DNA of 64,000 nt from Daphnia carinata (taxonomy: Eukaryota > Arthropoda > Branchiopoda > Diplostraca > Daphniidae): contig NC_081331.1 in NCBI RefSeq assembly GCF_022539665.2, positions 7,781,534-7,845,533 of the forward strand. Reading direction: 5' to 3'. The notes under the pieces were generated by a model, which did not search any database, had not been told where the DNA came from, and saw only the letters and a list, made by a program, of their open reading frames with translations. Shown here piece after piece: positions 5,734-63,853 of the stretch (its first letter is position 1; each line of letters begins with the position of its first letter). The translations under genes and the position numbers were made by a program.

Positions 5734-7646
5734 ATGAGTGCCTTCCTGAAAAACTTCGTCGACGGCTACCATGATCTGATGATCAACAAACGAGGTAAGA
5801 TGAATTTAATGTTAAACGGGAAAAGAATAGTGTAATATTTCATTTGATCGTGTTCCGATAAACGTAGAAATTTTCGGTGTATGCAAAAGCGATGTTCGAA
5901 AGAAGCTTACCATATTTTGACTCTCCCACCTCCTTTCCTGATGAATTGTTACGACGGATGCCCCTATACCGTAGTGTAGTTCTTAACAGTGGCGATGCTC
6001 CTGGTCCATTGACCTCATTCGACGACGCTCTGCGGTTGAGCCTCTCAGAGTAGTGACCCCATTTGTGTGACCACTGCTTAACGGAACTCAGCCAAATCTT
6101 GGAAGAGAAAACGTTAGTTGGACATTTCGTAACTTCAGTAGAAATAAAAAATTCCGCAGTGGCTTTCTTTGCAACTCTCTACTACTTAGCTTTACGATCA
6201 CCTTCATGTGGCTATTGCGTCCGATTTCATAAGCCATTTACAATACCAAACGAAACACTTTATCCAAAGGCAACTCGTATTCTTCTTTCCAAATTTCTTC
6301 CTTTCGATTTGCAGACACAAGAGTGGATGGGTGGCTGTTAATGAGTTCGCCATTCCCAACTTTACTGATTTGCGCGTGCTACATCTACTTCGTGAAATAT
6401 TTGGGACCGAGACTGATGCGTGATCGGAAACCCTTTGAGCTCCGGTCAGCAATCATTGTTTACAACGTCATTCAAGTAGTCTCCAGCATTTACTTAGTAT
6501 ACAAGGTAATAGACTAATTGGCTCTTCGCTGTTTTCTTCTGCTTCCGTGTGTTAGTGCTGTGGGAAGAAACGGTAGATGCAAACATCAGCCTTTCTCTAT
6601 GCATTGTATCCATTATTAAATTTCCTTTACTTTGTTTCCTCTTATCACTGTGGTACGTTCACTTTTAGGGATTGGTTCACGCATGGCTGTTCCGCTATAG
6701 CCTTCGTTGCCAGCCAGTCGACTATTCTGATGACCCAGATGAGCTGATCGTCGCCCAGATGTGTTGGTGGTATTACTTCTGTAAATTCACCGAATTTTTG
6801 GATACGATTTTCTTCGTCCTACGGAAGAAGTTTGACCAAATCACCAATTTGCACGTAATCCACCACAGCATCATGCCAGCCGCCGTTTGGTGGGGAGTGA
6901 AATTCACTCCCGGTGGCCATGCCACCTTCTTTGGAATGCTGAACACCTTTGTTCACATCATCATGTATACTTACTACTTGTTAGCAGCAATGGGGCCGAA
7001 ATATCAAAAATATCTGTGGTGGAAAAAACATTTGACAACAATGCAAATGGTACAATTTGTTACTGTCTTTTTCCACACGGCTCAGCTTTTCTTCATTGAA
7101 TGCAACTTCCCCAAAATCATCGCGTACATCATGTGCTTTAATTCAGTGATGTTTTTAAGCCTTTTCTCGAATTTCTACATACAGGTATTTTCTTTTTAAT
7201 ATGTTCTAGAACTTACATTGACAATGGTTATGATAATTTGCCTGCGTTTGCTTGAGATGCTTTTTTGCTAATGTTATTTTGCAACTGTTGTATAGGCTTA
7301 TATAAAACGCCGCCGACTGCCCGCCATTAAAAAGGACGACGATCATCATGATGGCTTGCATAACGGATTAGCTAATCACAGCGGCACATCTTCCGACAAA
7401 GCTACTAGCAGCAAAAATAGTGGCAAAGAAGAAAAAGAACGACGTGGAGTCGGAAAGATGATTACTACCATAATGACCAATGCGTCAGCTGCTTGTTACA
7501 TTGGTCAGAATGGTCTCTATCAGTCAAAAGACAAAACGAAAGGAGCTGACTCCTGCAAAAGTAAAGCCAACTTCAACGGCAAATCTAATAGCCATTTACA
7601 TAACCACACGAATGGCCAATTTGCAACCCAGAAGAAAAATTTGTAA
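5734..7646 (+). CDS. Elongation of very long chain fatty acids protein (ELOVL family)
   Basis: Four exons: 5734-5794, 6315-6505, 6669-7184, 7296-7646, all GT-AG, 372 residues. ELOVL proteins are multi-pass ER membrane condensing enzymes that join malonyl-CoA to a long-chain acyl-CoA, the rate-limiting first step of each elongation cycle. The histidine box HVIHH is at residues 146-150, preceded by the KFTEFLDTIFFVLRKK block and followed by the NTFVHIIMYTYYLLAAMGP helix. Hydrophobic segments near residues 30-50, 60-80 and 165-250 fit the usual six to seven membrane spans. The start was chosen for the AAAAATG context and the short hydrophilic N-terminus typical of the family. The tail (257-372) is long, polar and rich in Ser, Lys and Asn, beyond the usual family length, with no clear C-terminal KKxx retrieval signal. 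It resembles the ELOVL1/4/7-like arthropod group; substrate range cannot be read from sequence. Confidence 0.9.
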
Positions 7647-18894: not shown

Positions 18895-21673
18895 TCAGAA
18901 CTTCAGAGTTTTTTTAGAGAAAAACATAGACAGATCAAATGCTTTTTTCAATCTATTTGGTCCACTTGTTTTTTTTTTAACAAACAAAAGCGACGAAAAT
19001 AAATCAGATTTAAGGCGGTTACGTTTAGTCGATAGAATATCGGTGGCCGTACTGAAAGCTCTCTCAATACTTCCAGATGACGCAGGAATGCCAAAAATGT
19101 CTCTCGCAATAGGAGAAAGAATAGGAAAACGATGGCTGTTGATCCTCCAGAATTGTAGCGGCCGTACTGGTTTCTTTCCCTTTGTTGGATCTTTAGCTTC
19201 AATGTTCTCCTCCATAGGCAAAGTCGGCTCGTTCAGGTATGTTTCCAGTTCCTCAATCGCTCTAGTACAACCAACTGAACTCGATCGTCGTGGCTCGATA
19301 ACCGTGCTGTATAGAGACCGCGGCTTCCTTTTAGAGGGTGTAGGGCCATTCGCATCCTTTTCTCGTTCCTGCAATGGTTGACACTGCGTGTCGATGACAG
19401 GTGATTCGATGGCTAATATGATTTTTAAAAAATTAGATGTGTAAGAGGTACTTCATTTAACATTTTCTTACCATGTTTGCGATAAAGCTTCTCCAGCTCA
19501 GATTTTACGGCACCCAAAACCATAGACTCAGAGAGGTTTCCGGTTGGTCTTATAGAAGTAGTTGTACAGTGAGCACGCAGTGTTCGCTACAATTCGCCCG
19601 TTCACATCAAGAATTGTTAGTGACACCTTTGTAAACATATCAAAATATGCTGGAATCACAATCCCAACCGTTTCATGATCTGCTTGAAGTTCATCGGTGG
19701 CTTCTTTGAAAGTCTCCAAAATGATGACTAACTCTTTCAAAGTTTTCAATTCAATCGCTGTAAATTTTCCGTGCTTTTTCATTGCGTTTAATTTTCCTTG
19801 AAGAGACGGATCCTTCTCTAATGCTTCAACCAACTTGCTGAACATTGAGTACTGCGAACTCCAACGCGTCAAATTCTTTGCGGGTATGCGAAAATTTACC
19901 GAGTTTACTAATGTTTTAGTATCAATCACGGTGTGACGATTGAAATTGACAATTTTGCTAGAGCGAGTGATAGCTATGCGTGCCACGCCCTGTAAATGAA
20001 ATATCAAATATTAATCCAAGATTGAAATAAGATTATATCAATAACAATTACCATCAGTGATGACAAAGCGTCTTTAATCACCAACTGGAGAGTATGAGCG
20101 ATGCAAGTGGATCGTAGTGACGACGTCAAAACGTAATGCTGGTCGTCTGCATTAACCATCAATGTGGGTCCTTGAAAGAGATAGGTGTCTTCTAAACTTG
20201 ACTCGACGTCCTCCATTTCACTAGCGTCTTCGCTGTCTTCTAGAAGTTCCGTCATCTCACTGTCAAACTCCGACAAATTTAAAATCCCGTCAGGATCTTC
20301 CAGATCAAGCTCCAGTTCCACCATTTCTGTTTCATCAGCCAATTGGACAATTGGCGTAAAGAAATGAATTCCTTCACTTTCAGCTTCCCGAGCTTGCTGC
20401 TGCTCTTCGTGAGTTGGCTCATCAGGATGTCCTCCTTCATCTTCCTCCCAACTAGGAAAACCACAGAACTGAGCCGCAATCATATTACTGCCACCATCCG
20501 TCATTACTTTAAGCACCTAAAAATAGACAAGAAAATTATATAATTTAAAATCAAGTACAATATAAGAGGCATTAGCTCACCTTTGTAAAGGGAATTCTCC
20601 ATTTCAGCAACATTTCTTCGTATTCTGCAATGATAGCATCTGCTGTATGACGACCACTCATTTCTTTGAGACCCAAGAAGCAATTGAACAACTGGAAATC
20701 AGCGGTCACGGCTTGGCACGTAAATCCAATGTATCCATTCATGTTCTTTGATGACCAGATGTCAAGTATAATGGTAAAGCTAACAGCTGTAGTTAGTTTT
20801 TCCATGACGTGTCTTCGGACGGTTGCCATCAATTTTGGTAAAAGACACTGGCGCATTCTTAGGGGAGAGGGTAGTTGGTACCCAGGAGCTGCCACCTGAT
20901 GTTGGAAAAAGAACATCATACTTCGATCAAATGAAATTAGCAGTAAACATACCTTAAGTAATTCACGAAATCCAGGACGTTTCAATAGGTTTAGAGGAAG
21001 ATTTTCTTCGCACAGAAACCTGATGACACTATCATCCAGTGATTCCTTGCATGCCTTACACATTGGCTTGTTAGGGTAGGTGAAGTCCAGCATAGAAGTG
21101 GAACTTGGCCTGCTTTGGTGTAGAGCCGCAGAAGTTGAAAAACGGTCCAGCTCCTCTTTGTGTAGCAATGTACAGTGGATCTTGAAGTTGCTGAAGGAAG
21201 TTTTATCCCCCGCAAAATATTTATGACACAGCTTACAACAGGCAAAAATTTTTCCTTTAAGGGTCTTACGCCAATCTTCAAAAAACTGTGAGCGCCAGTT
21301 TGGCCAAGAATTAACAGTAAATGATGGCACTGGCTCGCTTCCTGGTGGCAATGAAGGCTGCTGATTTGAAGACGTACTGCTGTTTTCTGTTGCATCATCC
21401 TCAACCAGATCAGAAATATTTTCTGCATTCGGAGTGATGCTTGATTCTAAACTGTCGATATCTTGTTGTTCTTGTTGTCCCTCTTCTTCGATTTGGGGTT
21501 TTTGGTGGTCGTGGCATTGTTCACACACTAAACATTAAGAATTAGAATGAGAACAGTGAAAAAGTTAGAAATTTACAATTCATACCTCCGTTCTTCGACG
21601 AATCAGATCGATCTTGGATGAAACTTCCAAAACCCAGATTGTTTACATACGTATGGTCACTGGAAATACCCAT
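18895..21673 (-). pseudogene. hAT-family transposase (zinc-finger BED + RNase H-like + dimerisation domain)
   Basis: Five exons on the minus strand: 21673-21586 (start ATG at 21673), 21527 to about 20584, about 20518 to 20053, 19992 to about 19472, and about 19413 to 18895. The product is roughly 700 residues. It has a BED-type finger (WPNWRSQFFEDW...CCKLCHKYF...HCTLLH), the RNase H-like core with VMTDGGSNM and CIAHTLQLVIKDAL, and the C-terminal dimerisation segment with FPILSPIARDIF, SSGSIERAFS and KRNRL. hAT transposases cut and paste via hairpin intermediates on the flanking DNA. A one-base frameshift near 19545 breaks the fourth exon, so this copy is probably inactive. Confidence 0.8.
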
Positions 21674-35407: not shown

Positions 35408-35442
35408 GAAAGCAAACACTAAGTTTCTGAAACAGAGCCAAA

Positions 35443-38400
35443 ATGGCCGCTGGAATTTTTTCTGCAAAAGATGTTTCCCACATTTCAAAATTCAAAGGAG
35501 ATCAATTTAACTTCTACAAATTCCAACTGAGGCTCGTTCTCATGAATCATGGGCTTCTCAACATCGTAGAAGGGACTAACAAGAGACCCACTGCTATCGA
35601 TCCAATTGCAAGCCCTTCGAATGCTGCTGAGGTAAAAATCAATACTGAAAAAATTGATGAATGGATCAAGATGGATATAGCAGCACAAAATTTCATTGTG
35701 TCTACCCTTGAGGAGAAAGTCATGCGAACCATCATGAACTGTAAAACATCATACTCAATGTGGTCTCGGCTTGTAAGCCAATATGAGCTAGCCTCCATGG
35801 AAAACAAGCACTTACTGATGGGTAAGTTCATGTCCTATCAGTTTGATCGTAGCTACGATGTCATGACGCATGTAGCTGCTGTCGAAACTCTGGCGTCCCA
35901 ATTGCGCGATGTGAATTCACCGGTTTCCGACGACCAGATTATTGCCAAAATTACTTCAACCCTGCCATTACATGGAAAAAGAAATTACAAATCTTTCATG
36001 TCAGCATGGAACAGCACTGATGACAGAATCAAGACAATTTCTCTACTGGCCTCCAGACTCCAAGTCGAAGAAAATATGCTGAAGCTTGCTGAGGTATGCA
36101 TGGAGCCATCTGATGCTGGAGCTTTCTTTGTTAATAAGAAGAAAGAGAAAGCTGCGTTCCCTGAAACAAAGAGGGATTTCAGATGTGATAATCGTCCCAA
36201 ATCTCTCTGCGCTTATTGTAAAAACTTGAATCGCAGAGCCAACCATCGTGAAGAAGATTGCTGGCTAAAACAATCCTATTTACAAGGTAAACGTGACGGT
36301 AGTGCTGGAGATGCCATGCTTACTCACCTGACAAAACGGGAACCACCCTTCTTCGATGATTCCTATGCCTTCAGGTCTGCGGAAATTCAGTTTAATTCTG
36401 AATGTTGGTATGCCGATTCTGGAGCAAGCGAACACATGACTGACAACAGGGCCCTATTCACAGACATGAAATCAACCCAAAGTGGAAAGCGTCTCATAAA
36501 AGGAGTCGGAAGGACAACAAAGCCCTTCATGTAACAGGAATTGGGAACATTTCCATCCGCAGTAACGTGGATGGAGAGTGGCATGATGGAATCCTTCGGG
36601 GTGTTCTATTCGTTCCAAATCTAGGCGTAAACCTATTCTCAATTGGAGCTGCCACAGAACGCGGAGCAATAGCATCGTTCGACAAGGACGGTGTAAAGCT
36701 TGAAAAAAACGGAAAAGTTGTTGCCGTTGGTTCAAAAATCGAGAAGAGACTTTACCAGATGCATTTTTCAAACCACCTATCACCCGCGTTATCTGCAGCT
36801 CTCGCCACCAAGGCCACACAAAACTCTGCTCAGACTTGGCACGAACGCTTGGGCCACGTTAATTTTTTAACGCTGCAAAAGATGCATTCAGCTGACTTCG
36901 TCGATGGACTCACCATTCATAATCCATCAGGCCAACCACCATTTTGTGAAGGATGTGTCTTCGGTAAACAACACCGGCTTCCGTTTCCTACGTGTGGCCG
37001 CACCCGAGCAACAAAACGAGGCGGCCTCATTCATAGTGATCTGTGTGGACCAATGTCAACCCCCTCGCTAAACGGAGCGTTTTACTTTATCACATTCCGA
37101 GATGACTTCACTGGCTATGGCTTCATTCGGTTCCTGAAGAAAAAGTCTGATGCAAGCATTCATATTCAAGATTTAATCAGCCGCTGCGAAACGGAAATTG
37201 GTGACAGTGTTGCAATTCTTCGTACTGACAATGGGGGGGAATACACGAGTAAGGAGCTCACCTAGTGGATGGCCAACAAAGGAATTGTTCACCAAACAAG
37301 CACGGTAAAAACGCCCGAGCAGAATGGAGTCGCTGAGCGCTACAACCGAACGATTCTTGAATCAGCAAAAAGCATGCTCTATTCGTCCACACTTGGAAAG
37401 GCTTTCTGGGCAGAGGCCTCCGCAACAGCTGTCTACCTACACAACAGGGTTTCCTGCAAAGCCATGTCAACAATGACTCCCTACGAAGGATGGTACGGGA
37501 GAAAGCCTAACGTCTCCCATCTTCGCATCTTCGGCTGTGACGCATACGTCCACATCCCAAAAGACGAACGTTCGAAACTGGATCCAAAAGGTTTTAAGTG
37601 CCAGTTCATTGGATATTCGGAAACACAAAAAGGTTTTCGGCTGTACGACTCGGTGTCGGGGAAAGTAAAAATTTCTAGAGACGTAATTTTCAACGAAAAA
37701 CCCACTGACGTCCGAATTTTACCTGTACCTTGCAGTGACGGCACTGATCTCGTTGAAATTGGAGTAGGTGGGGATGTTCCCGCATCCAACGATCCTGCTA
37801 CAGTGTCTAATTCAGTCAGTAGTACCAGCGCAGAATCAACCATGGACGAAGATAATGTATTGGAACCTTTTCATGGATTCGGCCCCCCGGAGACAAACAC
37901 TGACTCTTCCCGAAAATCGTCACGTATGCGAAAGAAACCAGATCGCCTTGTTGAAGATCCTAACTTTCTAGGCATCATGAAGGAAAATCTCTCTCATCAA
38001 GATTTCGTCGAACCACAGTCATATAAGGAGGCACTTTCATCCCCTGAAGCGACTAAGTGGCTTAATGCGATGGAGGAAGAAATGCAGTCGCTAGTGAAAA
38101 ACGAAACCTGGCGCTTGGAAGCACTTCCCTGTGGTCGCAAAACAGTTAAAAACAGATGGGTCTTCAAAGTGAAATGTGACTCATCCGGCCACCCCATCCG
38201 CTTCAAAGCCCGCTTAGTGGCCAAAGGCTTCTCACAGAAGGAAGGTGTGGACTATGACGAAACCTTTTCTCCGGTTGTGCGACATGAGTCAGTGAGAGCA
38301 GTTCTAGCAATAGCAGCAACACGTGATTTTGAGATTCTTCAACTTGATGTGAAAACCGCTTTCTTAAACGGTGAACTGGCCGAAGAAATTTTTATGGAGC

Positions 38401-39569
38401 AACCGGAAGGCTTCGTATCAAGCTTATGTCCCACAAATGCTTGTCGCCTACAGAAAAGTTTGTACGGATTGAACCAGGCGTCTCGACAGTGGAACATCAA
38501 GTTCGATGGAGTACTTGTAAATCTCGGATTCATTCGGAGTACAGCCGATTCGTGTGTGTATCATCGCCATGATAAAGATGGCATGATAATTTTAGCAGTC
38601 TGGGTCGATGATGGTCTGCTCTGTGGTGAGAATAAAAGGCGGCTGATAGACCTAATTGATCAGCTGTCAGATCATCTGGAAGTTTCCACACAAGAGGCCG
38701 ACCTTTTCATTGGTATAAAAATTGATAGGGATCGCCCGAACCGAACGATCTATCTCTCCCAGGAACAATACATCATTCGGATACTCCAGCGATTTAAAGT
38801 AGCAGAGTGCAATCCAAAAGCGCAGCCAGCAGACCCTTACTCCAAACTAACCATCACAGGAGTCGAAAGTGGACCGTGTTCGCCACCTGCTGATGTTTCC
38901 ATTTACCGAGAAGCAGTCGGGAGCCTAATGTTTTTGATGGTCTGCACTCGTCCAGACATTTGTTTTGCAGTTGGACAAGTGGCGCAATTCTGTCATAATC
39001 CAAAACAAGTTCATTGGGCAGCTGTGACGAGGATCTTAGCCTACCTAAAGGGCACATCGAAGTTTGGAGTGGTTTACAAAGCAGGCGATGAGTTACAAGT
39101 ACTCTCTGCTTTTACAGATTCTGATTACGCTGGCGATACTGACACACGTAAATCAACTTCGGGCTTCCTGCTCATCTTTAATGGAGGGCCAATAGCATGG
39201 AGCAGTCGACGTCAAGCATGCGTATCCCTGTCAACTACTGAAGCTGAATATGTGGCCATGTGTGAAGCGAGCAAAGATGTTGTTTGGGCTCGGCGGTTGC
39301 TAAATAGTGTTGGCTGCGAACAAACACGGCCAACAGCTCTATTCTGCGATAACCAAGGGGCAATCAAGCTCACGCTGAATCCTGAATTCCATCGTCGCAC
39401 TAAACACATAGACGTACGGTATCACTATGTTCGGGAGCAGCAGACGAACGGAAGCATCACAGTCAGTCATGTCGGAACAAAAGACCAGCTGGCTGATTTA
39501 TTCACGAAAGCGCTGCCCGGTCCGGTATTTCAGGAATTGAGGAAAAGGGTTGGAGTGGTTCCAGTTTGA
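35443..39569 (+). pseudogene. Copia gag-pol polyprotein with one frameshift and one stop
   Basis: Segments 35443-36534, about 36510-37265 and 37269-39569, together about 1370 codons. Gag holds a variant zinc knuckle CAYC-x8-HREEDC (36208-36260; the usual spacing is CX2CX4HX4C). Protease: WYADSGASEHM. Integrase: HERLGHV...CEGC zinc site, then Asp of HSDLCGP, Asp of RTDNGGE and Glu of NGVAERYN. RT: QLDVKTAFLNGEL and the active site AVWVDDGLLCG (WVDD for the usual YVDD). RNase H: FTDSDYAGD, STTEAEYVA, DNQGAI and KHIDVRYH. The amber codon lies between the second Asp and the Glu of the integrase; the shift lies between protease and integrase. Otherwise all catalytic residues are present. Confidence 0.9.
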
Positions 39570-44720: not shown

Positions 44721-45332
44721 ATTAACCAGCTCACACTAAACCGCACTACTACTGTCCAATAAATTATCACCTGTTCATCGGAAAGTAAAAATTAGGTTGC
44801 AAATCAGATATGCAGATTTTTTAAATGTGTTCTATTAAATCGCTTACCCCAATTAAGATATCACAGCAGAAAGTTTTATGTTGTTTGTTGTTTAAATCAC
44901 GGTTGCTGTTTTTCGTCTGACGCCAATGTGTCAATGATAGTGGAAACGAATTGCTAAAATGCGGAATGCGAAGGTTGGGAATGACTAATTAAAGGGAAAA
45001 GTGGAAACGAAATAAAAGGTTAAGCTTACCCCGCGGCAGGTCGAACCTTTTCCCAGGTAGTCGAACCTTTTCTCAGGTAGTCGAACCCTTTTTCAGGTAG
45101 TCGAACCTTTTTCCAGGTAGAAAAAAGCACGTGATGTCAACACCACCAATGGCAAAAGGGATACCAAAAGGAAAAGAAAATGTTAAGCCTTGCCAAAGGC
45201 AGTTTAAACCTTTTTTCAGGTAGTCGAACCTTTTTTCAGGTAGTCGAACCTCTTTCCAGGTAGAAAAAAGCACGTGATGTCACAACGACCAATGAAAAAA
45301 CGGATGGCGAAATGAAAGGAAAATGTTAAGCC
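43920..45332. repeat. GGTAGTCGAACC minisatellite and its larger unit (left part)
   Basis: AGGTAGTCGAACCTTTTTC (about 20 bp) occurs singly or in small runs at 43990-44040, 45050-45120 and 45205-45260. Each run is part of a larger unit, GTTAAGCC...GGCAG...repeat run...AAAAAAGCACGTGATGTCA...CCAATG, seen at 45000-45165 and 45176-45300. The next unit starts at 45320 and is interrupted at 45332 by the palindromic element. An older unit lies at 43920-44040. Confidence 0.7.
45325..45332. repeat. Left target-site duplication GTTAAGCC
   Basis: Exact match to 51946-51953; the base before (T) and the base after the right copy (T) continue the host repeat seen intact at 45176-45200. Confidence 0.85.
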
Positions 45333-45338
45333 GATTGG

Positions 45339-45486
45339 CGGAGAAAAAGGCCCAGACGAAAAAGGCCCAGACGAAAAAGGCCCGCGAAAAAGGCCCAGAC
45401 GAAAAAGGCCCATACGAAAAAGGCCCACTTTTTTCCAAATTCAAAAGTGGGCCTTTTTCTCCATTGGACTGGGCCTTTTTCTCCGT
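45339..45486. repeat. Left terminal repeat module of the palindrome
   Basis: Five GAAAAAGGCCC words in direct orientation (spacing 15 bp, one 12 bp), a spacer, then two inverted GGGCCTTTTTCTCC words. The inner part, CCCACTTTTTTCCAAATTC and its reverse, is itself a hairpin. The right module at 51793-51939 is its inverted copy. Confidence 0.9.
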
Positions 45487-46564
45487 TTAATTTCCATGTT
45501 CCCACAAACTCTATATTTATTTTCAAAATATATTTCCAACCTCCTATTCCGTGGAAAGTGGAATGTACATAGGTTGCTGAAACCGTTACCTTCTATTAGG
45601 TTTGCCGAGATCAAACAATGTTAGCGTATGTACATTAGTTAATCTTTGATTATTTATTCGTTAGCAATCTGATTTCGGATTATGTTAGTATTGATATATT
45701 GCTAATATCCCGTTAAATAAAGTTCATTTTTCACAATTTTTGTTTATTGAACTACTATCGGCGTTTTTTAATATAATACAAGAAATTAATGTTTTTCGCA
45801 CTTAGCCTTGTTCTGTCCACCCTCTTTGATTATTCCCCCAACCCCCAGTCCATTTCCCTTATAACTTCCCTTTGTCGATACTTATGCCATAGGTAAAGAC
45901 CACTGATTCGTTGTGAATAAGGAAACTGAATGAGTTCCGCGGGGCTTTTGTGGTTGCTGGGAACAAAAATATGTTACCACGAAGACTAGTTTATTATTAT
46001 TAACATTTGATAAATAATGTTTATAGGAATAATAGTACAAACTTGAACTATCGTCTGAGGCAAGGACCAAAATAAAGACTATTGTAATTCAATATTGATT
46101 CTAATACTATTTATTCTTTATACATTTTCAATTCTTTTAACAATTACAAAGAGCCCAATAAATATATTAAAATCATAACCTACTGCTATAAATGATTTTG
46201 TTCGTTCTTCGTGTCCTGTTTTCACCTTTTGTACATTTTCAAGCAGCTATTGATTACCTAATTACACATCACATACTACATTGAGATATAAGGAAGCTTT
46301 ACACTTTACGTTAGCAAAGCTACTAATAATGGCAAATCAATTTTCTACTACGACGGATTTTTTTTATGAGAGTCTCTTATTAGTGAAGACACTAAACCTT
46401 TTAAATTGAATCTAAGATTTTTTTTCTTCAAATTTTCCACGATCATGGAAGGCATATCAGTGTAATTTTCTAAAAAACTATCACGACATGGCTGCACATG
46501 AAAGAACACAAGTTTAGCTGATCCATCAGTCAGTATCAGTCTTTCATGCGATAAATTTGCCTTT

Positions 46565-48542
46565 TTTCTTTAGTTTATTCACTTTATGTTCTTTCTTTTC
46601 AGTTTTCTTTTTCTTAATGTTGGCCTTTCTCCTTTTCTGTTGTTATTCCCTTCTCTTTTCCTTTTCTTCGATTCGTTCAGCGCAATTTTTGTTACTCTCT
46701 GATTTGATTTGATCTCGTTCATTAATTGGTTTGGCAAGCAATTCCACATAGTCTTTTACCTATTGCAATACAGAAAGGTTAAAAGTTTTCAAGATCTTAC
46801 AAATATTTTTGTCAAATTGAAAGTTTACCTGAAAACCTTCAGCTATTTGCAGAGCACCATTTCGTGCCTGTTTCTCTTCAATACTTCTTGCATTTTCAAC
46901 TTCAGCTTAGCCTACCAAGATTTTCATTTTTGGTTTAAGTTTTATTTTCTTTCATTTTAATCGTTGCCACTTCTGGATCTAAAGTGGTCTTATTCAGAAT
47001 GGGTGAGGAATTAGATAGTTCTCCAAAGTCAAATTTGCCGGAAACTAGGCAGCCTCCACTGTTAAAAATCGGTGTTGGCAGTGTACTTGCTAGTCTTGCT
47101 TCAGGAATTTCTGTTTTAACAAACTCTGAAAGACCAGAGGTTGATGACACAGATGCTGCCTTGGTGGCTCGAGCATGTTTGGCAATTCAGGACCTCTTCT
47201 TCTTACTTTTCCTTTTTAATTTCTTCTTCATTCCCTCTAACTTCCGTTTAAGTTTGATTTTCGTTGTCTTATCAGACAATTCCAGCTTTTCTCTGAAAAT
47301 CAATGGAATAAACTGGCCGGTCTTCCTTAAATGTAAATGTTAGACATACCTGTTAAGTGTGAGGTGTTCATTCGGTTTATGTTCTTTCTTTTCAGTTTTC
47401 TTTTTCTTAATGTTGGCTTTTCTCGTTTTCTGTTGTTATTCCTTTCTCTTTTCCTATTCTTCGATGCGTTCAGCCAACTTCTTTTACAATTTGATTTGAT
47501 TTCATCTTGTTTCTTAATAGATTTAGCAAGCAATTCCACATTGTTTTTCACCTATTGCAATACAGAAAGGTTAAATTATTTAAAATCATAAAAATATGTA
47601 TGTCAAATTGAAAGTTTACCTGAAAACCTTCTGCTCTTTGCAGAGCACCTTTTCATGCCTGTTTCTCTTCAATACTTCTCGCATTCAACTTCAGTTTGGC
47701 CATCCAAGATTTTCACTTTGGCTTTGAGTTTTTTTTTTTATCGTTGCCACTTTTGAATCTAAAGTGGTCTTGTTCAGAATGGGTGAGGGATAAGATAGTT
47801 CTCCTAAATCAAATTAGCTGAATACTAGGCAGCCTTCACTGTTGAAAATTTGTGTTAGCAGTGTACTTGTTGGTCTTGGTTCAGGAATACCTGTTTTGAC
47901 AAACTCTGTCGGATCAGAGGTTGATGACACTGATGCTGCCTCGGTGGCTTGTGCAAGTTTAGCAATTCAGGACCACTTCTTGTTATTTTTCTTTTTTAAT
48001 TTCTTCTTCTTCTATTTTTCTAATTTTTTTAAAGTTTGGTTTTCATTGTCCTATTAGACAAATCCAGCCTTTTCCCTGAAAATAGATGGAATAAGCTGGC
48101 CAGTCTTCCTTAAACGTAAAGATTAACACATACCTGTTAAGTGTGAGGTGTTAGCTGCTAGACATTCTTCTTGTTCAACACCAACCTTATTGCTATTGAG
48201 ATCGTCAACTGTAGATACACTTTCAGTTGGAATGTTGGTCAATAAGCTAGCAATGAAAAACTCTTCAGGAGAGAGTTGCTTTTTAAGAGCGACGGTGTCA
48301 ATGGACCCTCGCGTTTTATAAGGCTCTTGATTTTTAGGGTCCTCATTTCCTACAAATTTTGTTTAGACGTCACTTTCAAGTTCTTGTTTTCTCTTTTTCT
48401 ATTTACAAAAACTGCCTCTCATATTATAACCTTTAAACTTTATTATTATTTACCTTGATCTCTCAACATTATCACTGATCACTCCATAGATCAAACTATA
48501 CGAAACAATAAGTCTATTGTTATTTTCTTTAGGGAACGGCAT
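46565..48542 (-). CDS. Unrecognised multi-exon gene of the palindrome, left-arm copy
   Basis: Reads leftward from ATG at 48542. Exon-like blocks: MPFPKENNNRLIVSY...SDNVERSR (48542-48450), then about 48345-48140 with NEDPKNQEPYKTRG, LKKQLSPEEFFIASLLTN and the end EECLAANTSHLTG at a GT donor (about 48137), then a block with LSD-T-K-KLKRKL, Lys runs, SSTSGLSEFVKTEIP and NSSPILNKTT. A third block (coiled-coil-like, KSI-KQDEIKS, KKLAERIEE) ends the unit. The 785-bp 3' unit occurs twice in tandem (48154-47369, 47369 to about 46565). Several exons carry stops in this copy. Basic and coiled-coil parts suggest DNA binding or oligomerisation; no known family. Confidence 0.4.
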
Positions 48543-48655
48543 TTTGAAGCCAAATCTAGCGTCAGGACGCCACAAACAATGGCGGACGGTGGAAAGCTGT
48601 TATTAAAACTTTTAGCTAAAGCTTTATTAAAATTTAACAAAATTTAGTTCCTTTG

Positions 48656-48693
48656 TTATTGTTCTATTATTATAATTCATTATTATTGTTATA
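48656..48693. other. Centre (loop) of the palindrome
   Basis: 38 bp of T/A-rich sequence between AACAAAATTTAGTTCCTTTG (48636-48655) and its exact inverse (48694-48713). The stretch 48543-48808 separates the two divergent ATGs and would hold both promoters. Confidence 0.8.
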
Positions 48694-48808
48694 CAAAGGA
48701 ACTAAATTTTGTTGAATTTGTAATAAAAGAATTAAAAATTTTTAAAATTTTATGTTAAAAACCGTCCGCCATTGTTTGTGGCGTCCTGACGCTAGATTTG
48801 ACTTGAAA

Positions 48809-50697
48809 ATGCCGTTCCCTGAAGAAAATAACAATAGACTTGTTTCGTATAGTTTGATCTATGGAGTGATCAGTGATAATGTTGAGAAATCAAGGTATAT
48901 AATAATAAAGTTTAAAGGTTATAATATGAGAGGCAGTTTTTGTAAATGGAAAAAGAGAAAACAAGAACTTGAAAGTGTCGTCTAAACAAAATTTATAGGA
49001 AATGAGGACCCAAAAAATCATGATTTCTAGCTTATTGACCAACATTCCAATTGAAAGTGTATCTACAGGTGACGATCTCAATAGCAATAAGGTTGGTGTT
49101 GAACAGGAAGAATGTCTAGCAGCTAACACCTCACACTTAACAGGTATGTGTTAATCTTTACGTTTAAGGAAGACGGGCCAGCTTATTCCATCTATTTTCA
49201 GGGAAAAGGCTGGATTTGTCTGATAGAACAATGAAAACCAAACTTAAAAGGAGTTAGAAAAATTGAAGAAGAAGAAATTAAAAAAGAAAAATAACAAGAA
49301 GTGGTCCTGAATTGCCCAACTTGCACAAGCCACCGAGGCAGCATCAGTGTCATCAACCTCTGATCCCACAGAGTTTGTCAAAACAGGTATTCGTGAACCA
49401 AGACCAACAAGTACACCGCTAACACCAATTTTCAACAGCGAAGGCTGCCTAGTATTCAGCAAATTTGATTTAGGAGAACTATCTAATCCCTCACCCATTC
49501 TGAACAAGAACACTTTAGATTGAAAAGTAGCAACAATAAAAAAAAACTCAAAGCCAAAGTGAAAATCTTGGATGGCCAAGCTGAAGTTGGAATGTGAGAA
49601 GTATTGAAGAGAAACAGGCATGAAAAGGTGCTTTGCAAAGAGCTGAAGGTTTTCAGGTAACCTTTCAATTTGACATACATATTTGTAAGATCTTAAATAA
49701 TTTTAACCTTTCTGTATTGCAATAGGTAAAAAACAATGTGGAATGGCTTGCTAAATCTATTATGAAACAAGATGAAATCAAATCAGATAGTAAAAAGAAG
49801 TTGGCTGAACGCATCGAAGAATAGGAAAAGAGAAAGGAATAACAACAGAAAACGAGAAAAGCCAACATTAAGAAAAAGAAAACTGAGAAGAAAGAACATA
49901 AACTGAATGAACGCCTCACACTTAACAGGTATGTGTTAACATTTACATTTAAGGAAGACCGGCCAGTTTATTCCATTGATTTTCAGGGGAAAAGCTGGAA
50001 TTGTCTGATAAGACAACGAAAATCCAATTTAAACGGAAGTTAGAGGGAATGAAGAAGAAACTAAAAAGAAAAAGTAAGAAGAAGAGGTCCTGAATTGCCA
50101 AACATGCTCGAGCCACCAAGGCAGTATCTGTGTCATCAACCTCTGGTCTTTCAGAGTTTGTTAAAACAGAAATTCCTCAACCAAGACTAGCAAGTACACT
50201 GGCAACACCAATTTTTAACAGTGAAGGCTGCCTAGTTTCCAGCAAATGTGATTTTGGAGAACTATCTAATTCCTCACCCATTCTGAAAAAGACCACTTTA
50301 TATCCAGAAGTGGCAACGATTAAAATGAAAGAAAATAAAACTTAAACCAAAAATGAATATCTTGGTAGGCCAAGCTGAAGCTGAGAATGCAAGAAGCATT
50401 GAAGAAAAACAGGCATGAAATGGTGCTCTGCAAATAGCTGAAGGTTTTCAGGTAAACTTTCAATTTGACAAAAATATTTGTAAGATCTTCAAAACTTTTA
50501 ACCTTTCTGTATTGCAATAGGTAAAAGACTATGTGGAATTGCTTGCCAAATCAATTAATGAACGAGATCAAATCAGAAAGTAACATAAATTGCGCTGAAC
50601 GAATCGAAGAAAAGGAAAAGAGAAAGGAATAACAACAGAAAAAGAGAAAAGCCAACATTAAGAAAAATAAAACTGAAAAGAAAGAACATAAAGTGAA
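48809..50697 (+). CDS. Unrecognised multi-exon gene of the palindrome, right-arm copy
   Basis: Mirror of the left-arm gene. ATG at 48809 opens a 59-codon frame, with SYSLIYGVISDNVEKSR, then KFKGYNMRGSFCKWKKRKQE, to 48985. The next exon (49005-49141) has lost about 70 bp that the left arm keeps between PKN and LLTN. A GT-AG intron at 49142-49200 is visible (CAG|GTATGT...TTTTCAG|GG). Two tandem 785-bp 3' units follow, 49128-49911 and 49912-50697. The second unit is better preserved: 50130-50345 is an open frame with SSTSGLSEFVKTEIPQPRL. Because each arm keeps different parts intact, neither copy alone is clearly functional. Confidence 0.4.
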
Positions 50698-51792
50698 TAA
50701 ACTAAAGAAAAAAGGCAAATTTACCGTATGAAAGACTGATACTGACTCATGGATGAGCTAAACTCTTGTTCTTTCATGTGCAGCCATGTCGTGATAGTTT
50801 TATAGAAAAATACACTGGCATGCCTTCCATGATCGTGGAAAATTTGAAGAAAAAATATCTTAGATTCATTTAAAAAGGTTTAGTGTCTTCACTGATAACA
50901 GACTCATTTTAAAAAAAAGTCCGTCATGGTAGAAAATTGATTTGTCATTATTAGTAGCTTTGTTAACGTAAAGTGTAAAGCTTCCTTATATCTCAATGTA
51001 TTATGTGATGTGTAATTAGGTAATCAATAGCTGCTTGAAAATGTGCAAAAGGTGAAAACAGGACACGAAGAACGAACAGAATTACTTATAGCAGTAGGTT
51101 ATGATTTTAATATATTTATTGGGCTCTTTGTAATTGTTAAAAGAATTGAAAATGTATAAGGAATAAATGGTATTAGAATCAATATTGAATTACATAATCT
51201 TTGTTTTGGTCCTTGCCTCAGACGATAATTTAAGTTTGTAATATTATTCCTATAAACATTATTTATCAAATGTTAATGATAATAAACTAGTCTTCGTGGT
51301 AACATATATTTTTGTTCCCAGCAACCACAAAAGCCCCGCGGAACTCATTCAGTTTCCGTATTCCCAACGAATCAGTGGTCTTTACCTATGGCATAAGTAT
51401 CGACAAAAAGAAGCTATATGGAAGATGGACTGGGGGTTGGGGGAATAATGAAAGAGGGTGGACAGAACAAGGCTAAGTGCGAAAAACATTTATTTTTTGT
51501 ATTATATTTAAAAAAGCGATGGTAGTTCAATAAACAAAAATTGTGAAAAATGAACTTTATTAAACGGGATATTAGCAATATATAAATACTAATATAATCC
51601 GAAATTAGATTGCAACCGAATAAATAATAAAAGATTAACTAGCGTACAAACGCTAACATTGTTTGATCTCTGCAAACCTTAAAGAAAATCACGGTTTCAG
51701 CAACCTTTGTACATTCCAAATTCCACGGAATAGGAGGTGGGAAATACAATTTTCGAAACAAACATAAAGTTTGTAAGAAAATGGAAATTGAG

Positions 51793-51939
51793 CGGAGAAA
51801 AAGGCCCAGTCCAATGGAGAAAAAGGCCCACTTTTGAATTTGGAAAAAAGTGGGCCTTTTTCGTATGGGCCTTTTTCGTCTGGGCCTTTTTCGCGGGCCT
51901 TTTTCGTCTGGGCCTTTTTCGTCTGGGCCTTTTTCTCCG
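51793..51939. repeat. Right terminal repeat module of the palindrome
   Basis: Inverted copy of 45339-45486: two GGAGAAAAAGGCCCA words, an internal hairpin around TTTGAATTTGG, then five GGGCCTTTTTC words. Ends in CTCCG before the last six bases of the element. Confidence 0.9.
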
Positions 51940-51945
51940 ACCTCC

Positions 51946-52065
51946 GTTAAGCCTTGCCAAAGGCAGTTTAAACCTTTTTTCAGGTAGTCGAACCTTTTAG
52001 CAGGTAGAAAAACGACACGTGACTGCTCGCGAACCAATGACGGCGTGCGCACGCCGTTAGGTTAT
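51946..52065. repeat. Interrupted GGTAGTCGAACC unit (right part) with second GTTAAGCC
   Basis: Continues the host repeat broken at 45332: GTTAAGCCTTGCCAAAGGCA, TTTAAACC, two CAGGTAG words and ACACGTGACT, then CCAATG. Orientation is the same as on the left side, as expected for an insertion and not for an inversion. Confidence 0.8.
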
Positions 52066-60950: not shown

Positions 60951-63205
60951 TTACGCAATTGAAGGTTCCGTTATTTCTTCCTTTGCATAAACTTCTGGAT
61001 CATTTGCAGTAACCAAAATACACATAGTTTATCCACCGGACGAATGCATGGTCGTGGGTGGTTACTGAGCTTGACTTTCACTACGCGAAAAACATTGTCA
61101 GTAGGGCTAGGAATAACTTCGAGCACTTTGTCCAACGGCCACTGTTCCCGTACGGTGTTAGGTTTTATTTAAGCACCAAGTATTCCGCGTAACGTTAGGT
61201 CTATTTTCTTCCTATTTCCTTCTTTCAGTCAGGTGGGTAGTCACGTAGCCATATATTCTAGAAGTGTTGGAGGATGGCTTGACTTTGCAAAAACTATTTA
61301 GTAGTAACTTTCGTATTTCCCACGTCAGCCAGCTCAAGAGGCAAGTACGGCCAAGCTCCACCGTATAGGAAGTGATTTGGCGTCAGGGGATCCGGGTCTT
61401 CTGGATTCATACTTAGGTGTGTTATTGGCGGGGCGTTTAACAAAGCTGCGACTTAAACCACGACAGTCCGTATACTTGGTCTGTGACGAGGCAATCGCCT
61501 ATACTTGTCTTCATTGCCCGTTTACAAGACTGCACAATTCTTTCTTGAAGTCCGTTGGCTACTTCAAGGTGGACAGCTCGTGTCGTCAGGCACGTGAACA
61601 GATTCACCCAGCGTTTTCCATGTCGTCTTCCATGTCCTCTTCCACGAACTCGTACCGTTAAAGCCTCGAAGTAGTCGATTCCAGTGTACGTGGACGCAGG
61701 TAGATGAGGTATTAAAGGTTGTACTGGTAGGGAAGCCATCAGCGGAGGGCCAGGCCTCGACGACATACGCTTGCAAGGCCAGCAGTTATTGATGACAGAT
61801 TTTACCACTTTGCGTCCAGAAAGTATCCAATAGTGCGAATGTAGATCAGTCAGCAATTTCTCGGTCCTTACGTGGAAATGGCTAGTGTGATTATCCCAGA
61901 CCATCCTTCGTGTTAAAAGCTGAGCCGCTGGCAAGGGTATGGGGTGTTAAGTCGCGTAGTCGATTGGCGTATGAAGTACGCCCACTCGCACCAACTCGCA
62001 ACTGACCAACGTCGTCTAAGAAGGGCTTGAAGATTGGATCTGAATAGCAATACTAGATTCTTGCGAAGGGCGTTGATTTCTTCAGCAAAGGCCAATTCCT
62101 GTGCACGTTTGATGCATATTATCAGCGACGCTAACATTTCTTCCGGAATTAGCTCGCTGACCATGGGTTTTTCGCAACGTTATTTTGCCCGAGCGTTTTT
62201 AGCAAATCTTTGACTCCAGGCTAACACTCGTTGAAGTTTCAACAGACTGGAAAAACGGGTGACGCATCGATCAGTGACGTGGTTTTCATCCTCCGTTTCG
62301 ACCCCAGAATACGAATCACGTTTATATCCCATTGTCCAGGTTCCGTAATTTCTTCCCAAGTGTACCATTCTGATGGATTGACATCCCTTGGGTCGATGCC
62401 CGACTGCAGAGGTCTGCGGGATTTGACTCTCTAGCAACATGACACCATTGTCATCGACCCGTGTTCCGGGGTATTTTACCGAGTGCGATTGTTGAGGAAA
62501 ACTTCAAATCGGCAGTTCTTCGAATGGATCCAACGCAGCACCGTTTGTGAGTCTGTATGGCAGGTTACTTGACGCAGGTCGATTCCCAGCTCGCGATAAT
62601 TCGTGAGGGCGATATTGAGACCCTCCACTGCGGCTTGCAGCTCTAAACGTGGTACCGTGATATCTTTCACCGTTGTAACGTGTGTTTTTGACATAACAGA
62701 AGACACGTTGACCGAATGGTCCTCGAATACAGTACGGCAGTAGGCTACATCTCCGAAGCCTTTGGAGCTTGCATCCCAATTACATGGAGGTGTTGTTGTG
62801 TCCAATGTCTCCGTTGGAATCGGAAGCATCTTGGAACCGAAAGAGACTTCAAATTTTCAAGGTGGCCATAGCAACAATAGAAACGTTGGCCCAATGCTTC
62901 AGGTAACGCATCGTCCCAGCCAATCCGTTTCTCATTTGTCCAGATCTTTTAAAGTAAAGACTTCATGAGGAAGATAACGGGTGCTACGAGGCCCAGCGGA
63001 TCGTAGACACTAGAGATAATGCTCAAAAAGACTCTTTTGGTGAAGATCTCGTTGTTCGACGGCTTTCGAGTCTGGAATGTCAACATATCTCTCTCGCTGT
63101 CCCACATCACACCCAGCGTTCTTTCAACGGGGAGTCTTTCCAAGTCTAGGTCCAGAATTGGTGAAGTGAGGCCCAATTCCCGTCACGCTGCTTTCACCGT
63201 CTTCG
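60951..63205 (-). pseudogene. BEL/Pao retrotransposon pol relic (RT end, RNase H, integrase)
   Basis: Minus strand, in order: ERTLGVMWDSERDMLTFQ and TKRVFLSIISSVYDPLGLVA (63120-62980), the typical BEL/Pao post-RT block; RNase H at 62829-62476 with NWDASSKGFGDVAY, VPRLELQAAVEGL, TDSQTVLRWI and NNRTR; a linker 62440-62180; integrase at 61934-61437 with LHSHYWILSGRKVV, CWPCKR, YTGIDYFEALTV and LTTRAVHLEV; and the C-terminal barrel (WPLDKVLEVIPSPTDNVFRV, HPRPCIRPVDKLC) to TAA at 60951-60953. Frameshifts and stops separate the blocks. The RT itself and gag are missing; the upper end is joined to a copia gag at about 63205. Confidence 0.85.
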
Positions 63206-63795
63206 CACCTAAATAATGCAACTGTTTTCTTGTTGGTTTCAACATTGTTCCATGCAGAATGAAAGTGCCTATAACTTGGTGGCAAAGTCATGATAATCTT
63301 TCCAATTACTTGTTCTGGTGGCAATGAGATTCCAAGATCGCTTAAATCTGTTGCCATTGTTTCAATTGCAGTTATATGACTTGTAACGTTACCACCTTCT
63401 TTATATTCATATGCATAGAACTTCTGTAACAAGTAGTGCTTATTTTCTTCAGAATTTTGCTCGTGTTGAGATTTCAATCTGGTCCACATTTCATGAGCAG
63501 TTTTGCAATTAATCAGTGATCTTTGTGCCTGTTCTTCAATGGTGGAGACAATGAAGCAACGAGCTGAATTGTCCTTCTTGTTCCACAACATTATTTCTTT
63601 GTCTCGTGCAGCAAGCAGAGATGCATCACTGCCAGCAGGCAAAGGTGCTGGTTTTGTTGACTTACCAAGCACAATATCACACAACTCATGTTGCTCTAGA
63701 ATGAGGGTTATTTGAAACTTCCAAAATGAAAAATTTGTACCGTCAAATTTTGAAACATGAGACACATCTTTTGAAGAAAACACTCCAGTTGCCAT
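63205..63795 (-). CDS. Copia-type gag (UBN2-like), 5' part, fused to BEL sequence
   Basis: From ATG at 63795, about 195 codons in a clean frame: FSSKDVSHVSKFDGTNFSFW, then NCKTAHEMWTRLKSQHEQNS, LLQKFYAYEY and the end IIMTLPPSYRHFHSAWNNVE. It is plainly related to the gag of the 35129-39818 copia element (GIFSAKDVSHISKFKGDQFN). The frame stays open past about 63205 into antisense-frame BEL sequence and stops at 63124, so the last 27 codons are not copia. Zinc knuckle and pol are absent. Confidence 0.8.
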
Positions 63796-63853
63796 TTTTC
63801 TGTGAATAATATTTCTTAGTAGCTCTGTAGGTTAATTGACAGTACTCAAATGG

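Follow-up and report, generated by a model that had tools for sequence, protein, structure and literature searches.

The window analyzed here, a 64,000-nucleotide stretch of the genome of Daphnia carinata (contig NC_081331.1, positions 7,781,534 to 7,845,533), contains a near-perfect palindrome of 6.6 kb at window positions 45333–51945. Each of its arms carries, from the centre outwards, exons of SURF6, a ribosome-biogenesis gene of the host, and its ends recur in a 10.8-kb relative that has a transposase gene. Very probably, the palindrome is a non-autonomous foldback-type Mutator-like element (MULE) of the Phantom subclass, which resembles Tm1 of root-knot nematodes in its build and carries captured host SURF6 DNA, that is, a Pack-MULE.

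The palindrome and the SURF6 DNA in its arms

From 45339 to 51939 the element is a chain of inverted-repeat blocks with 89–98% complementarity (inverted-repeat search, 25 of 26 pairs shown), and GTTAAGCC directly adjoins both borders, outside 45333 and 51945, as an 8-bp target site duplication (TSD; 45325–45332 on the left, 51946–51953 on the right). An earlier sequence-only reading had described such a palindrome with GTTAAGCC on both sides as well as the terminal module, GGAGAAAAAGGCCC, and both are present as described. Each end consists of a 7-bp motif followed by GGA and by 15-bp tandem repeats; end A starts with GATTGGC (45333–45339, plus strand, beyond the inverted repeat) and end B with GGAGGTC (51939–51945, minus strand), after which GGAGAAAAAGGCCC follows in both, so that the ends are unlike. 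The terminal array of end A, foldback-like and made of 15-bp units GAAAAAGGCCCAGAC, lies at 45343–45427 (plus strand) and that of end B at 51851–51935 (minus strand), each with 5.8 copies and 93% identity according to Tandem Repeats Finder (TRF). The centre of the palindrome with its loop occupies 48608–48762; around 48640–48720 an inner hairpin can be made out by eye, its loop a few dozen bases long, and a 51-bp piece of the centre is 92% identical to a subterminal part of the 10.8-kb relative. When the flanks are joined around a single GTTAAGCC, they match 45171–45234 (plus strand) with 98.4% identity over 64 bp. The empty site that had been proposed within the window is thus confirmed, as a paralogous unit of a local repeat and not as an allele, because 45171–45234 belongs to a tandem array with a period of about 143 bp (TRF).

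The outermost 854 bp of arm A (45333–46186, plus strand) are an element-specific part, found whole or partially in the variants typed, and gave no blastn match to the host SURF6 locus (L031, which served for comparison). Next to it lies a first SURF6 unit (46187–47365, minus strand, 76% identical to L031) comprising the end of exon 1, intron 1, exon 2, intron 2, exon 3, and 3′ flank, then a second unit, a tandem duplicate of about 800 bp (47366–48171, minus strand, 77.9%), and then part of exon 1 (48172–48417, minus strand, 81% to L031 2118–2360). Arm B has the same two-unit layout in opposite orientation (48932–51070, plus strand, 76–88% to L031 by pieces). The part of about 800 bp is tandemly duplicated in each arm of the window element; the 10.8-kb relative has it only once, and so does L114, a variant of 2.84 kb with one full arm, a B end of about 90 bp, and an exact 8-bp TSD. 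The arms are colinear with the host locus in blastn through exons 1 (in part) to 3, both introns between them, and the 3′ flank, with 76–78% identity in the main blocks and 81–88% in the two larger pieces of the exon 1 part; since introns and 3′ flank align colinearly, genomic DNA was captured. In the genome searched (108 Mb in 106 contigs), PF04935 finds host SURF6 at C3:8059517-8060197 (best exon 1.4e-12) and, including the host gene, gives 119 hits in 84 clusters; its hits in the window are G000:C1:7828116 in arm A and G000:C1:7831259 in arm B.

The sequence-only reading had assigned the element a gene of its own in both arms. This idea had to be abandoned once the reverse-strand exons matched SURF6 by PF04935; judging from the domain hits and the blastn alignments, the arm gene is a captured copy of host SURF6, riddled with stops, and it is the 10.8-kb relative that holds a transposase gene instead. 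It is improbable, although the least so of the alternatives considered here, that the SURF6-like gene functions for the element, for example as a nucleolar cofactor, and is not a dead passenger. Its distribution would suit a function: of the 57 paired elements (pairs of adjacent ends that point inwards and lie no more than 20 kb apart), 47 contain one or more SURF6 hits, a minimum because the ten misses include L114, L117, and the 10.8-kb element, which bear SURF6 by blastn, and in the window copy both arms hold it. Third codon positions also differ more between captured and host sequences (0.31–0.36) than first and second positions (0.15–0.20), and eight of the 117 non-host hits are free of stops over the matched stretch. 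However, in-frame stops interrupt both window arms and 109 of the 119 hits, host exons counted (the ten without stops include two host exons), and the exons have diverged from the host (0.18–0.26) about as far as introns and 3′ flank have (0.14–0.29), the pattern that a decaying copy should show relative to a host gene under constraint; the codon-position bias, in turn, can be explained by the constrained host branch. Further, L114 with its single unit still has an exact TSD.

Capture of SURF6 on a single occasion is the simplest reading, because the six captured rows in the tree, which come from five loci, group in a single clade (support 100/99). The host SURF6 protein is 91% identical to that of D. 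magna and 82% to that of D. pulex, from which we infer a Daphnia nearer to D. magna. For dating, 25–33 sites per unit were used at which the host and D. magna agree against D. pulex; there, the five captured units side with the host and D. magna at 18–26 sites and with D. pulex at 0–1, which points to a capture later than the divergence of the D. pulex lineage. The tree gives a support of just 65/45 to a clade that unites the captured copies with the host and D. magna, and captured copies joining D. magna (81/82) are not separated from captured copies joining the host (p 0.25, not rejected). The five outgroup rows of this tree are proteins without species names, columns 105–172 are masked in four captured rows, and L119_B and L117 are left out.

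Ends and target site duplications across the genome

The 21-mer of end A occurs at 81 sites of the genome with up to two mismatches and that of end B at 84, while the reversed controls gave none. Among the 57 paired elements, the combination is A+B in 54, A+A in three, and B+B in none. An exact 8-bp TSD flanks 34 of 56 paired elements, one has an exact 9-bp duplication, and two match at 7 of 8 positions, whereas an 8-bp match was found in 2 of 3080 mismatched end combinations; the count leaves out one A+A pair (C95:11014), the outer pair of a nested element on C6, and the other unpaired ends, with 51 unpaired ends in total. Fourteen paired elements are 6.55–6.62 kb long and have the palindrome centre; the TSD is exact in 11 of them, the others being L010, L015, and L022. 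The TSDs sit in sequence contexts that differ from copy to copy, as the test named in the sequence-only reading required, and the 34 target sites display weak base preferences only and no strong consensus. The nested element at C6:5322594-5327718 has an exact 8-bp TSD, and the sequence obtained by joining its flanks recurs uninterrupted in either arm of the 10.8-kb relative (94% over 67 bp); it thus provides a second paralogous empty site.

Spread by segmental duplication or driven by a satellite, with no transposition, is an unlikely explanation for these copies. It is true that several of the copies lacking a TSD are embedded in a repeat common to them, which proved to be a 70-bp satellite wherever it was checked, and that the flanks of two A+A elements on C10 are alike, but the exact 8-bp TSD of 34 of the 56 elements speaks for transposition, and the flanks compared linked different elements only via the shared repeat and the C10 pair. 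That pair (G000:C10:106468-112221 and C10:523623-529225) has opposite orientations, and one of the two is probably a segmental duplicate or an assembly copy of the other. As for the satellite, the flanks of L010, L014, L019, L022, L026, and L028 lie in or beside a 70-bp array; where both ends were compared, L010, L022, and L026 are without a TSD and L014 has one.

The transposase-bearing relative and classification

The 10.8-kb relative (C5:6361584-6372400) has A and B ends like those of the window element and an exact 8-bp TSD; its arms are 99.85% identical over 2736 bp, and the outer 7-bp motifs differ. Between the arms lies a spliced gene, a core that the window element is without. Its product contains the MULE transposase domain PF10551 (3.4e-8, 34.2 bits at a cut-off of 27.6) and a match to FLYWCH, PF04500, the N-terminal domain expected in the Phantom subclass, slightly under the cut-off (1.2e-4, 22.6 bits against 23.6). 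The nearest named proteins are from Daphnia (D. magna 68%, D. sinensis 61%, D. galeata 54%), and the relative from D. galeata aligns across the FLYWCH-like part. It is because this element with shared ends carries a FLYWCH-like and MULE transposase gene that the palindrome is placed with Phantom and Mutator. An 8-bp duplication falls in the TSD range of MULEs, and the size of about 8–10 bp of the Phantom subclass agrees with what was found here (8 bp in 34 of 56 elements, 9 bp in one). The very long inverted repeats with internal tandem repeats are the trait of the foldback class, and that of a Pack-MULE is present as well, namely host SURF6 with its introns inside a MULE, with a TSD on the window element itself.

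Assignment to a foldback element of the Galileo type (P superfamily) or of hAT has very little probability. Such elements would be consistent with the long, internally repetitive inverted repeats, and also with the TSD, as hAT and P elements likewise give 8-bp duplications; against them stands the relative with shared ends, which encodes a MULE and a near-threshold FLYWCH domain and in whose scanned pieces Pfam reported neither a hAT nor a P domain. With its transposase being of the MULE type, both assignments were rejected. Of the foldback/Galileo-type affiliation put forward in the sequence-only reading, the foldback architecture is therefore retained and Galileo is not, since Galileo has a P-element transposase (PMC3169594, PMC3573991, PMC3688188).

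Related transposase genes are found elsewhere in the genome, with exon matches of mostly 50–78% identity, and could also help to move the elements. On G000:C59:2761-27070, where 24 kb lie between an A and a B end, transposase hits at C59:12976-14387 have exons 65–78% identical to those of the 10.8-kb element, the last one 47%; this interval is a possible second helper.

Arm divergence, mechanism, and comparison with known systems

At least 69 matches to the left arm are present in the genome, 30 of 291 candidates having been scored. Scoring 40 of 58 candidates placed the palindrome centre at 28 or more loci, with 97–100% identity across 189 bases or more. When 13 full copies were aligned, the two arms within a copy differed by 5.4% on average; between copies, the mean difference is 1.1% for A arms (minimum 0.06%) and 1.0% for B arms (minimum 0.2%), and in the tree of these copies A arms are split from B arms by a branch with support 1.000. 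Because the difference within a copy exceeds that between arms of the same side, and because the A and B lineages are common to the copies, the palindrome moved as a whole unit whose arms had diverged beforehand. Movement as a unit with 8-bp duplication and in many copies, as claimed from the sequence earlier, is thus borne out by the TSDs, the 28 centre loci, and the arm lineages. Of the 132 columns that tell A from B arms there are 45 exceptions, 34 of them in the B arms of L014 and L015, where they look as arm-to-arm conversion would leave them. Some copies appear to have moved recently, as they are nearly identical (A arms down to 0.06% apart). The least credible alternative, an assembly fold-back artefact or library chimera, was rejected: while long palindromes are an assembly hazard and the arms of the 10.8-kb relative are almost identical, exact TSDs flank 34 of 56 elements, the arms are 5.4% apart within copies and fall into lineages common to all 13, and the outer motifs are unlike at the two ends in 54 of 57 pairs, the 10.8-kb relative included.

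The copies vary in structure. L114 has an exact TSD together with its short B end, so movement does not need two long arms; the B arm is shorter in L115, and L116 has an internal deletion. The arms of L119 (G000:C8:1084106-1090315) carry unlike SURF6 versions, 82.7% and 94% identical to the window unit, and the divergent version keeps a stretch of exon 1 missing from the common one.

As a mechanism, we propose that a Phantom-type transposase from a relative would act in trans, recognizing the terminal motif and the repeats, and that the element would move by cut-and-paste; at one end, the last 90 bp or so may suffice for recognition, as in the short B end of L114. SURF6 would have been captured once, as DNA, and would have reached both arms by arm-to-arm copying, through either gene conversion or template switching. 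Such copying is suggested because the arms of the 10.8-kb relative are 99.85% identical with unlike outer motifs; it would stop short of the outermost bases, so that the outer 7-bp motifs stay different. The end region (45333–45490) folds much better as a single strand than shuffled sequences do (z −7.0), and such strong folding could plausibly bring about template switching. A near-perfect palindrome may then have been left once a relative such as the 10.8-kb element lost its transposase core, and this palindrome would have been amplified.

Several observations weigh against the interpretation as a Phantom-type Pack-MULE mobilized in this manner. Of the 165 ends, 51 are unpaired, and 22 of the 56 elements are without an exact 8-bp TSD. 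In ten of these 22, one or both flanks belong to a common repeat family (the 70-bp satellite in the six loci checked by TRF), where flanks may have been reshuffled; the repeat may therefore account for ten of the 22 and was rejected as the cause of all missing TSDs. Among the other 12 are the two with 7 of 8 matches and the one with 9 bp, and the rest are unexplained. The exon model of the transposase gene breaks frame at one exon join and, by eye, also near the N-terminus. A single transposase-bearing element with these ends was examined, so the helper is putative, and its specificity would follow from the shared ends. The order of capture, arm copying, and core loss, finally, is one that we infer.

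By description, Drosophila FB/NOF and Galileo elements are similar to the palindrome in having long internally repetitive inverted repeats and structural variation among copies. Galileo differs by belonging to the P superfamily (PMC3169594), and FB4 by a TSD of 9–10 bp (PMC8277862). Much closer is Tm1, a Mutator/Foldback element of the Phantom subclass from root-knot nematodes of the genus Meloidogyne, which likewise has asymmetric outer 7-bp motifs beyond the inverted repeat, then GGA, and then a variable array of 13–15-bp tandem repeats, has FLYWCH and a MULE transposase in a rare relative, consists mostly of non-autonomous copies, and whose two terminal inverted repeats within an element are, similarly, about 93% identical on average (PMC3169594). 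However, MULE transposases are associated there with a 9-bp TSD, and Tm1 itself has 9 bp compared to 8 bp here; its motif sequences differ from GATTGGC, GGAGGTC, and GAAAAAGGCCCAGAC, the element sizes given for it are 1.1 and 2.6 kb compared to arms of 3.3 kb in an element that is nearly all palindrome, and the word start “captur” is absent from the main text of the Tm1 paper, whereas the arms here hold a captured host gene (PMC3169594). As motif sequences and TSD length differ, the element is Tm1-like in build and no member of Tm1.

With respect to captured genes, the closest animal case of a Pack-MULE or Pack-TIR (terminal inverted repeat) element is Ssk-FB4 of Drosophila melanogaster, which is also a foldback element argued to be a MULE; it took up host genomic DNA, introns included, and moved with distinct TSDs (PMC8277862). 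Ssk-FB4 is described from three loci in fly populations, one of them tandemly duplicated, whereas no fewer than 47 of the 57 paired elements here bear SURF6, and the palindrome has it in both arms; according to the same paper, a survey of 100 animal reference genomes reported no Pack-MULE (PMC8277862). In Daphnia pulex, Mutator families A1–A10 are known whose representatives are reported to be Phantom-like, and the available text, compared by description only, mentions no palindromic or gene-carrying element among them (PMC2884549). Among the literature matches listed, judged by title or start of abstract and with subscription papers and supplements outside the scope, there was no SURF6-bearing or palindromic Phantom element from Daphnia. 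The kinds of element are known and the combination appears to be new; the suggestion that the family is undescribed accordingly agrees with the literature search, while the architecture as such had already been described for Tm1 (PMC3169594).

This would make the family a multicopy and well-preserved animal Pack-MULE where the 100-genome survey had reported none (PMC8277862). One genome holds many of its forms: elements with one arm long and the other very short, elements whose two arms are both long, elements whose arms are unlike, elements that have the transposase core, and palindromes without it. This range opens to direct tests the way in which MULEs acquire genes, and also the growth and homogenization of foldback arms whose outermost 7 bp remain unlike at the two ends. 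The family adds weight, too, to the idea that foldback architecture and Phantom transposases are associated in distantly related animals. A more speculative consequence, to which we give little probability, is that double-stranded RNA from read-through of the element body, an inverted SURF6 duplicate, could couple transposon silencing with that of SURF6; such a link could shield the element from small-RNA control by the host or tune ribosome biogenesis. Of the 1478 21-mers in the host SURF6 coding sequence plus 400 following bases, 43 occur exactly in the window element and 136 across the element copies compared.

Elsewhere in the window, open frames of a copia-type long terminal repeat retrotransposon (gag, beta-barrel, SH3-like, and RVT_2) lie at 35431–39569, and a second copia gag at 63124–63831 on the minus strand. 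The C-terminal domain of a hAT transposase (PF05699) is encoded at 18895–19452, also on the minus strand, and more open frames up to 21534 are hAT-like by eye, the one scanned having no Pfam match. At 6669–7199 lies an exon of an ordinary animal gene, which encodes an ELO fatty-acid elongase.

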